A DNA stretch of 64,000 bases from Natronorubrum aibiense (lineage in GTDB: Archaea > Halobacteriota > Halobacteria > Halobacteriales > Natrialbaceae): the NCBI RefSeq assembly GCF_009392895.1, contig NZ_CP045488.1:372001-436000 (forward strand), in the 5' to 3' direction. This document shows, in pieces, positions 35,806 through 50,953 of the stretch. Within the stretch, counting starts at the first letter, position 1, and the number at the start of each line of letters is the position of its first letter. Made by a program: the position numbers and the translations under genes. The notes under the pieces were generated by a model. That model ran no database searches. It was given only the letters and a program-made list of their open reading frames with translations, and was not told the origin of the DNA.

Positions 35806-35985
35806 ATGGAGCGTGTGACACTGCGAATTCCGAAACAGCAGATCGAGGAGGTCGAACAGCTAGTCGACTCGGGCGAGTACCCGAACCGGAGCGAAGCAAT
35901 CCGGTCGGCCGTCCGTGAAATGATCAACGAACAACAGGACGGGCCGAGCGAACAGTCCAGCAAACGAACGTGGGCCAAGGTGTAA
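35806..35985 (+). CDS. cdrS: CdrS, short ribbon-helix-helix cell-division regulator
   Basis: A 59-residue protein: strand [20 protein letters not shown], then helices with [14 protein letters not shown], a textbook RHH fold. In haloarchaea CdrS is encoded immediately before ftsZ2, shares its mRNA and controls division and other genes. Here its stop is 2 bases before the ftsZ2 ATG. The start at ATG 35806 is the only one compatible with the RHH fold. Assignment rests on fold plus synteny. Confidence 0.85.
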
Positions 35986-35987
35986 CG

Positions 35988-37175
35988 ATGCAGGATATCG
36001 TTCAAGACGCACTCGAGAACGCGGAACAGGAGGCCCGGGAGATGGACGCCGACATGGACGACGACGAGTTCGGCGATCCGCGGATCGTCATCGTCGGCTG
36101 TGGCGGTGCGGGGAACAATACGATCAACCGGCTGTATAACATCGGAGTCGACGGTGCCGATACCGTCGCAATCAACACCGACAAACAGCACCTCAAGATG
36201 ATCGAGGCCGACACGAAGATCCTCGTCGGCAAGTCGCTCACCAACGGGCTCGGTGCTGGTGGCGATCCATCGATGGGCGAGCGCGCTACAGAGATGGCCC
36301 AGAGCACGGTCAAGGAAGTTCTTGGGGATGCAGACCTCGTGTTCGTGACCGCGGGCATGGGTGGCGGGACCGGCACCGGTGCTGCCCCCGTCGTCTCGAA
36401 GATCGCCAAAGAACAGGGCGCGATCGTCGTCGGGATGGTCTCCACGCCGTTCAACGTTGAGCGTGCCCGCACGGTGAAAGCCGAGGAAGGCTTAGAGAAA
36501 CTGCGCGATCAGGCAGACTCGATCATCGTCCTCGACAACAACCGGCTGCTCGATTACGTCCCGAACCTCCCGATCGGCAAGGCGTTCTCGGTGATGGACC
36601 AGATCATCGCCGAGACCGTCAAGGGAATCTCGGAGACGATCACCCAGCCCTCGCTGATCAACTTAGACTACGCGGACATGTCCACCATCATGAACCAGGG
36701 TGGCGTCGCCGTCATGCTGGTCGGTGAGACACAGGACAAGAACAAGACCGACGAGGTCGTCAAAGATGCGATGAACCACCCGCTGCTGGACGTCGACTAC
36801 CGCGGCGCGTCGGGTGGGCTCGTCCACATCACCGGCGGCCCGGACCTTACACTCAAAGAGGCAGAGGGAATCGCGGACAACATCACGGAGCGCCTTGAGG
36901 CCTCCGCGAACGTCATCTGGGGCGCTCGGATCCAGGACAACTACAAGGGTAAAGTTCGGGTCATGGCGATCATGACCGGCGTTCAGAGCGCGCAAGTGCT
37001 CGGCCCAACGACCCAGAAACAGGCCGACAAATCCCGTCAGAGTATCGAAGGCGTCAGCAACACCGACTTCGACGCGAGCAACCACATCGAAGACGGTGGC
37101 TCCAACATCGGCGCACACAGCGACGGCGGCCGGGAAGAACTCGAGAAACAGAACGGCGTCGACGTGATCCGGTAA
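35988..37175 (+). CDS. ftsZ2: FtsZ2 tubulin-family cell-division GTPase
   Basis: A 395-residue FtsZ. The GTP tubulin signature [10 protein letters not shown] is near residue 128, with an N-terminal [14 protein letters not shown], and the T7 region NLDYAD for GTP hydrolysis. An acidic 35-residue N-terminal tail and a long disordered C-terminal tail (from about 340) are usual for haloarchaeal FtsZ2. FtsZ2 drives constriction together with FtsZ1. It lies in the cdrS operon. Directly after the stop are nine 28-bp tandem repeats. Confidence 0.96.
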
Positions 37176-37186
37176 TCGGCACGCAG

Positions 37187-37438
37187 CACTTGACACACCA
37201 CCCGCCGTACACGGCACTTGACACACCACCCGCCGTACACGGCACTTGACACACCACCCGCCGTACACGGCACTTGACACACCACCCGCCGTACACGGCA
37301 CTTGACACACCACCCGCCGTACACGGCACTTGACACACCACCCGCCGTACACGGCACTTGACACACCACCCGCCGTACACGGCACTTGACACACCACCCG
37401 CCGTACACGGCACTTGACACACCACCCGCCGCACGCGG
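37187..37438 (+). repeat. Nine tandem copies of a 28-bp unit directly behind ftsZ2
   Basis: The 28-bp unit begins CACTTGACACACCACCCGCC and ends with GTACACGG. Copies start at 37187, 37215, 37243, 37271, 37299, 37327, 37355, 37383 and 37411. Eight are identical and the ninth differs at two positions. There is no spacer. Each joint contains GCCG-TACA-CGGC, which can form a small hairpin. The array starts only 11 bases after the ftsZ2 stop. Because 28 is not a multiple of 3, frames through it stay open, giving false repetitive reading frames on the reverse strand. Confidence 0.97.
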
Positions 37439-37900
37439 CACACCGCATCGGTCCTGCGATCGACGGACCGGTTCATTTTTCAGCAGTTAGAGACTGGAGT
37501 GACAAGTCAGACAGTCGCTTCTGACGGACTGGCGCTCGAACTGGCGGGCACTCGTTCGTACACTCACACGGAGTCTAGGAAGCGAGACGGCCTCGAGTGC
37601 ACGGAACGTCTGAATCCGTAACCGACCAACAATAGCCGTGTTTCCGGCAGCTGTTACAAGGAGACGACAACGCTCCTTCTGAGTCCGGTTTCTGAACCAC
37701 CCGTCAGACAGTGTCATACAGAATCTTCAAAGTCGCGAGCATTTCACAATCCACTCCATTAAGGCGGCGTGCGAGACGACGGCGCTCTCGGACGACATCA
37801 CTCTACCCTCGTGTGGTGGCTTCGAAGAACGTACTTACGCTGGTATTCAGCGTCGGGGCTCTGGCAGTTCGGGGCAGAGAAGACGGCCGCTGTGTGGGGT
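37439..37900. other. 462-base region without a convincing gene
   Basis: Between the tandem repeats and ncsA. The open frames seen have no family character and poor codon use. No further copies of the 28-bp unit, CRISPR or RNA signature are seen. Confidence 0.5.
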
Positions 37901-38860
37901 TCAGGCGAGCGACTCGAGCAACGAACACTTCCGACAGCGCTCGCGGGTCGTGGTCGATCCACACTCGGCACATTCCTGTAAGTCAGTACCGTCGTCGCCG
38001 CTGAACTCGTCGGCGAGGATGCCAGCGAGTTCTTCGTAGCCCGAGAGAATCGAGTGACGCGTTCCCGGATGGTTCTCCTCGAGTCCGTAGAGGAGTTGCT
38101 GGATCTCGCCGCGGTAGGCCTCGCTCGAGTGGGGACACTCGGTGATGTGGGCCGGGAGGTCGTTGAGATGGGCATAGAGGGCGACCTCCTTTTCGGGGAC
38201 GTCTCGCAGCGGTTTCGCACGCGGGACGAACTCGTCCTGATCGTCGCGTTCGGAGAGCGGCCCGAGACTGGCGTCGAAGTGTTTGGCCATCTGTTCGACA
38301 TCGCCCTCGAGGAAGTTCATCAGCGCCGATTGGGCTTCGTCATCTAGGTTGTGGCCGGTCAGCAGGAGGTCAGCCTCGAGTTCGTCGGCGTACGTCGAGA
38401 GGAGATCCCGCCGGAAGACACCACAGTAGGCACACGCGGCCATGTTTTCGGGGTCGTCCTCGACGACGTCGTCCATCCGGACGCCGAACTCCTCCTCGTA
38501 GCTGACGACTTCGTGGCGGATCTCGAGGTCGTCGGTGAGGTCGAGACAGGCCTCGAGGCTCTTGTCCCGGTAGCCCTCGATGCCCTCGTGGATCGTCAAG
38601 CCGACGAGTTCGATACGAGGATCCTCTTCGAAGGTATCGTGGAGGATTTTCGTGAGAACGACGCTGTCTTTCCCACCGGAAAGGCCGATTACCCACGTCT
38701 GTGGGTTCTCTGGCGTCGCATCGTGTGGGACGAGGTCGTCCCGGCGGACGCGGCGGCGCACTCGCTTTTCGACCGACTCGAGAAAGTGGTCCGCACAGAG
38801 ATGCGCCCCAGAGTAGGCAGCGTGCATGACCGCCTCCTCGGAACACCGGTTACAGTCCAT
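37901..38860 (-). CDS. ncsA: tRNA 2-thiolation protein NcsA (TtuA/Ncs6 family)
   Basis: A 319-residue PP-loop ATPase ([15 protein letters not shown] near residue 59) with an N-terminal zinc finger (CNRCSEEA) and a C-terminal one ([12 protein letters not shown]). Catalytic CxxC lies in CAYCG near residue 142. It adenylates the uridine and, with a ubiquitin-like sulfur carrier (SAMP), places sulfur at U34 or U54 of tRNA. The ATG at 38860 starts with the zinc finger; the upstream frame is not conserved. Confidence 0.88.
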
Positions 38861-38979
38861 CGGCGTCAGGTTACCGACGAACGCGTATGTCCGTTTCGTC
38901 TCCGCGTGAGTGGTGACGAGGCAGTTCGGCCTCAACGGGCATCGATCAGGCCATCAAGGTGGCACCGGTCAGCTAACGT

Positions 38980-50609: not shown

Positions 50610-50953
50610 CGTCAGTCATGCTCAGGCCCGGAGACAAAAGTATGTCGCGCCCGAGGCACTCGTCAGACGGCTGTCTGCCGAACAATTACCAGTGTCGACC
50701 GCGAACGGAAAGTTGCCTCCGGTTCCCGTTCACGACAACTGTGGCCACACCGGGGTAAACGGCGTTACGACTCGGCACCGTCACGACGTCGTGAAAACGG
50801 GAGCTGGTGGTGTGTCTGCTGCTGCGACTGTGCTCCCGTGGTGCCAGTCACAACTGGACCAGTATAACGCCACCGATTAGCGTAGCGACACCTCGCTTAC
50901 CCAACACGCTACCGATACGACGCTTCTTACCCCTCGAGTCACAACGGCACGGT
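50610..50953. other. 344-base divergent intergenic region
   Basis: Between the 98-aa gene (reverse) and the CobW-type gene (forward). Only a short CCAGT/ACTGG palindrome (about 50843-50857) stands out; no convincing gene. Confidence 0.5.

Follow-up and report, generated by a model that had tools for sequence, protein, structure and literature searches.

It is known that the bacterial Csr/Rsm system (CsrA together with the CsrB or RsmZ decoys) has a short fixed loop motif, GGA, which is repeated on one RNA and is common to mRNA and small RNAs, with the mRNA sites placed at the ribosome-binding site. The tandem array behind ftsZ2 of the archaeon Natronorubrum aibiense resembles Csr/Rsm in this layout, as the ftsZ2 3'UTR and a family of small RNAs both carry the 13-mer TTGACACACCACC in their loops, but it lacks the features by which Csr/Rsm is defined: the conserved loop in the hairpins is the decamer GACACACCAC and not GGA, the sites are in the 3'UTR, the binder in this archaeon is hypothetical, and CsrA/RsmA (Pfam PF02599) was not found in this genome, while it was found in 3 of 14 control genomes. 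Archaeal 3'UTR and terminator elements, with termination at a U-run, are similar in that a T-run follows our element at the inferred transcript end; unlike them, it has a conserved loop decamer, is found on few transcripts and occurs in up to nine copies. Bacterial and archaeal VNTR or minisatellite loci share with it the tandem units and a copy number that differs between close species (between species only, not within one species), whereas the conserved unit here is a decamer with variable spacing that is also dispersed and present in small RNAs. The description as a variable tandem repeat fits the array but does not explain the conserved dispersed core. Type III toxin-antitoxin loci (ToxI) also have tandem RNA repeats near a terminator; no toxin gene adjoins the array, the neighbours of which are ftsZ2 and ncsA.

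The window, i.e., the whole stretch of DNA that was analysed, comprises 64,000 nucleotides, and positions below refer to it unless a contig is given. The first gene of the cdrS-ftsZ2 operon, cdrS (35806-35985, plus strand), encodes a 59-aa ribbon-helix-helix regulator (NCBIfam NF058555 CdrS, E 1.1e-35; Pfam RHH_1) and is followed by ftsZ2 (35988-37175, plus strand; TIGR00065, E 7.6e-120; Pfam Tubulin and FtsZ_C), which has its best matches in Natronorubrum (98-99% identity) and the 3' region of which holds the array. The convergent neighbour ncsA (37901-38935, minus strand; NCBIfam NF047749, E 1.4e-187), for tRNA 2-thiolation, is outside the element. In Halobacterium, cdrS-ftsZ2 mRNA rises over growth and ribosome occupancy does not, and the operon was proposed to be post-transcriptionally regulated (PMC8303175).

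Tandem Repeats Finder placed 9.1 copies of a 28-bp unit at 37186-37441 of the plus strand (99% matches, score 498), while the second-best array in the window had a score of 52. The preliminary description had spoken of nine tandem 28-bp units behind ftsZ2, eight of them identical, beginning 11 bases past the stop codon and with a unit length that is not a multiple of three, all of which was borne out: a pattern search of the whole genome matched the unit exactly eight times and once more with 2 mismatches, each time at the ftsZ2 locus, and the stop ends at 37175, so the array begins at the 11th base. The suggested search for the unit elsewhere had a divided result, as the unit is found nowhere else in the 4.35-Mb genome (the reversed-unit control gave 0 matches), while the 28-bp design recurs in three Natronorubrum relatives with 5, 6 and 9 units; an exact 40-base stretch of the array is absent from the other genomes searched. 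Nine copies of the core GACACACCAC were located by the genome-wide core search at 37192-37425 of the plus strand (C1:409192-409425), starting at 37192, 37220, 37248, 37276, 37304, 37332, 37360, 37388 and 37416. Behind the array, sequence and folding point to a hairpin (37447-37454 with 37465-37472) and a T-run (37476-37480), together (37447-37480, plus strand) a putative ftsZ2 transcript end, and most relatives also have a T-run 3' of the repeats. Since the array is placed between the ftsZ2 stop codon and the T-run, it is very probably the 3'UTR of the cdrS-ftsZ2 mRNA. The idea of a terminator cluster turned out to be weak, because T-runs come after the last hairpin and not after each unit.

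A CRISPR, already rejected in the preliminary description, is likewise rejected here, as the units stand head-to-tail without unique spacers between them. An array coding for a peptide was also considered and rejected: minus-strand frames of 261, 134 and 140 aa cross the array, but they exist because the unit has no stops on that strand, and unit length and frame differ in relatives, while the plus strand is not coding because the unit length of 28 is not divisible by three and a TGA lies inside the unit. Rfam gave no plausible match for the array region, and neither the array nor the small RNAs were found described in a literature search that covered few of the subscription journals.

The region 3' of ftsZ2 was compared in about 50 relatives and 80 named genomes, with some genomes in both sets. 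Relatives from the Natrialbaceae have 1-9 sense-strand copies of GACACACCAC after ftsZ2, at a spacing of 21, 27 or 28 bp or irregularly, and by this sequence comparison the conserved element is the core and not the 28-bp unit. The joint GCCG-TACA-CGGC, on which the preliminary description had focused together with the near-identity of the units, is indeed present (the first at 37204-37215 of the plus strand, recurring every 28 bp), but it is lineage-specific, whereas the core between the joints persists across genera. The string GACACACC is common to all motif-bearing ftsZ2 3' regions, with AC mostly next, and it occurs 133 times in sense and 0 times in antisense orientation in 130 such regions, some genomes being counted twice. 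The paired pattern GACACACC-N2-32-GACACACC is found at ftsZ2 in 15 Natrialbaceae genomes, and in this genome only at the ftsZ2 array. In the gene tree (rooted for drawing only), motif carriers make up a part of Natrialbaceae; Natrarchaeobius, Halopiger and Halobiforma, which sit among the carriers, are without the motif at ftsZ2, and since some Natrialbaceae lack it, the motif is not essential. Outside the family there are just stray matches in single genomes, and the Halobacterium genomes in the relative set have no ftsZ2 3' motif.

The core is embedded in potential stems. As a single strand, the array folds at -91.6 kcal/mol, compared with -72.7 kcal/mol (sd 4.9, z -3.9) for dinucleotide shuffles, all 100 of which it beats, and in the predicted fold, pairs of units form one long hairpin with the core in the loop. 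For 33 thinned instances, the mean score of the enclosing stem was 15.35. Shuffling the flanks gave a mean of 10.20 (sd 0.52) and exchanging partners among the instances one of 11.56 (sd 0.59), and none of 300 replicates reached the observed score in either control; the choice of core and stem score followed data inspection, and of the two controls the partner swap is independent of that choice. The complementary flanks read CCGGCACGAC[...]GTCGTGCCGG in N. altunense, GCGGC[ATCTGACACACCACC]GCCGC in N. hispanicum and GCCGACGTCGGC[...]GCCGACGTCGGC in Natronolimnohabitans. Because the flanks differ between species yet stay complementary, the core GACACACCAC appears to be usually displayed in the loop of a small hairpin or beside it, although some copies have no good enclosing stem. 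In the array itself, stem scoring and folding indicate that the arms of the joints can equally pair around the core (ACGGC-ACUUGACACACCACCC-GCCGU), and the joints are the same arms as the core-enclosing stem, in an alternative pairing.

Genome-wide, with both strands searched, the core has 25 occurrences, 9 of them in the array, and three of the others form the apical loop of an apparent stand-alone small RNA. Its predicted layout consists of a conserved TATA-like box, about 190 nt with several helices, and then a terminator hairpin with a T-run; the conserved promoter reads CCAATAG-CTTAAT. A covariance model finds 8 loci of this small RNA in the genome (weaker matches being uncertain), six on the main chromosome (C1:763293-763411, 745078-745198, 1449486-1449602, 1447829-1447936, 1395240-1395356 and 1359833-1359938) and two on smaller contigs (C2:127457-127581 and C3:71106-71222). 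Among 38 distinct sequences, 18 of 21 pairs are changed on both sides, in an alignment that was fitted to the model and favours its structure; cells with such both-side changes number 80, compared with 23.7 in shuffles, and 0 of 500 shuffles reach the observed values. Covarying helices and an own promoter, which mark a new small-RNA family, are thus both present, no Rfam family matches the loci, and the family seems to be previously undescribed. The neighbouring genes differ between the loci, so there is no constant gene partner.

The model also matches several loci in congeners, 3 in G028 and 7 in G036, the weaker ones uncertain, and E-values from such purpose-built models are rough. Strong matches are found in 12 of 17 genomes with the ftsZ2 motif and in 0 of 19 Natrialbaceae without it; in other words, all 12 Natrialbaceae genomes with strong matches carry the motif, with 10 of the 12 belonging to one genus and a per-genus p of 0.02. 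For Natrinema and Natronococcus, which have the ftsZ2 motif, the covariance model gave no convincing small RNA of the family, and it independently detects the ftsZ2 3' hairpin of Natrinema altunense. The loop is shared by one more hairpin in the window, CGGGAGC[...GACACACCACCA]GCTCCCG with a T-run (50794-50838, minus strand), with a cobW-type gene on one side and a 98-aa gene on the other. N. thiooxidans, N. bangense and G036 (L414) have it too, and N. sulfidifaciens and the remaining relatives examined lack it; a TATA-like box precedes the hairpin and T-run (50794-50870, minus strand), and the element is possibly a second small RNA or a leader.

As the ftsZ2 3'UTR, the small RNA and the cobW-side RNA all have the element just before a T-run, the presumed 3' end, and the array folds strongly, the hairpins could simply block 3'-to-5' exonuclease decay of the ftsZ2 mRNA, with a loop that just stabilises them or binds a general decay factor. 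We regard this as unlikely, though worth serious consideration, since a fixed decamer would not be needed for stability alone, the stems change while the core is kept, and the element is predicted on very few transcripts and not on 3' ends generally.

The number of copies differs between close species. Four Natronorubrum have 9, 5, 6 and 9 copies. The unit is 21 bp long in a genome grouped in the same genus (G009), where it occurs 6.7 times, and 27 bp long in three close Natrinema, which have it 3, 2 and 1 times; other Natrinema have one or two copies of the core, and Natronococcus, Natronolimnohabitans and Haloterrigena have 2-5 core copies without regular spacing. The suggestion of a length-variable 3'UTR was therefore partly right, given these differing numbers in Natronorubrum and Natrinema and the T-run after the repeats. 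In 29 units from four species, 2 of 290 cells vary in the decamer core and 48 of 522 in the rest of the unit. All differences in the 28-bp unit among four species (L009-L012) are transitions (C/T, A/G). The array could also be a neutral minisatellite, i.e., one ancestral hairpin resembling a terminator that slippage duplicated in some lineages, the extra copies having no function; eight identical units suggest recent expansion or homogenisation, which together with the differing copy numbers and the transition-only differences within arrays would be in line with this. We nevertheless find it rather improbable, as Natronococcus, Haloterrigena and Natronolimnohabitans have multiple copies that are not in tandem, the core is near-invariant in diverged arrays, and a small-RNA family that is otherwise different has this loop as well.

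Most loops of the small RNAs are TTGACACACCACCA, and there are paralogues with variant loops, which means either that recognition is loose or that these loops are functionally diverged. Variant loops could fit different partners, and a conserved single-stranded loop could serve as a seed, so it is conceivable that GACACACCAC pairs with an RNA carrying GUGGUGUGUC and that the small RNAs and the ftsZ2 3'UTR share this RNA partner. There is only a slight chance of this in our opinion, since the decamer is present at 25 places on both genome strands and no antisense transcript candidate stood out, nor did a non-systematic look find partners that match the variant loops. Sites for a DNA-binding protein (e.g., a regulator of division or replication) or for recombination would explain tandem, evenly spaced copies next to a gene controlled by the transcription factors CdrS and CdrL, but this is very improbable considering the strand bias of 133 to 0, the variable spacing, the covarying stems, the occurrence in small-RNA loops, and CdrL binding that was reported upstream of the operon and not downstream (PMC7439475).

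We rate at about even the chance that the array represents an RNA recognition hairpin amplified in tandem, which would likely serve as a multivalent docking site for a putative trans-acting factor. To hypothesize, each unit would expose the decamer GACACACCAC as a single strand, within a small hairpin loop or beside it, and this loop would be recognised by a trans-acting factor, for which an RNA-binding protein is the most likely candidate. Several copies on one ftsZ2 mRNA, if the array is transcribed as we expect, would then make a multivalent platform controlling translation, stability or location of the mRNA, with a presumable effect on cell division. The Halobacterium data (PMC8303175) independently support post-transcriptional control of this operon, although the Halobacterium genomes compared are without the motif. 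The dispersed small RNAs, presumably transcribed as well, display the same loop just before their terminator and may bind the same factor, thus competing or cooperating with the mRNA like the decoys of Csr/Rsm. Recognition at the level of RNA, rather than of DNA, is favoured because of the strand bias, the loop with its stem, and the small RNAs that share this loop; of the three ideas in the preliminary description, the protein-binding array came nearest, although the recognition site would be on RNA and not on DNA.

More tentatively, and with less than even confidence, we propose that Natrialbaceae have an unrecognised post-transcriptional system, in which an RNA-binding factor would read GACACACCAC loops, with ftsZ2 as the multivalent target and the dispersed small RNAs as decoys or co-regulators. 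To our knowledge, archaea have no established regulator that binds mRNA in a sequence-specific manner and is served by decoy RNAs, and the control of archaeal cell division after transcription is largely open. The element offers a concrete RNA bait sequence, small-RNA genes, and a set of species whose natural copy numbers range from 0 to 9.

Several other matches were set aside. An excess of TGACACACCACCA in relatives (35, compared with 2 in controls) was dropped and the raw enrichment is not used as evidence because the matches look coding (an MBL-fold LTHHHLDH stretch and a small zinc-finger-like protein). Occurrences of TTGACACACCACCA among the viral matches listed are scattered over unrelated contigs and were treated as chance. 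Repeats of the simple CACACCACGA type in another Natrialbaceae genome (L131, G034:C1:187504; L154, G034:C1:484701), one of them in a long open frame, are probably unrelated to the ftsZ2 array. A likeness of the unit to the 16S decoding-site strand CTTGCACACACCGCCCG was also dropped, as shuffles were as good in 79 of 300 cases for the core and 7 of 300 for the unit, the latter being marginal.

In the ftsZ2-ncsA region of relatives (e.g., L010, L016, L018, L020 and L021), a CGTTTACGG-CGTATACGG motif recurs near the 3' end of ncsA; it is inside a sugar nucleotidyltransferase-like gene (RGTRLRPYT) in some relatives and remnant-like in others. A 15-mer of the 16S rRNA decoding site is present five times in this genome (C1:738036, 777964, 901579, 1558205 and 2985636), which suggests that it has up to five rRNA operons.
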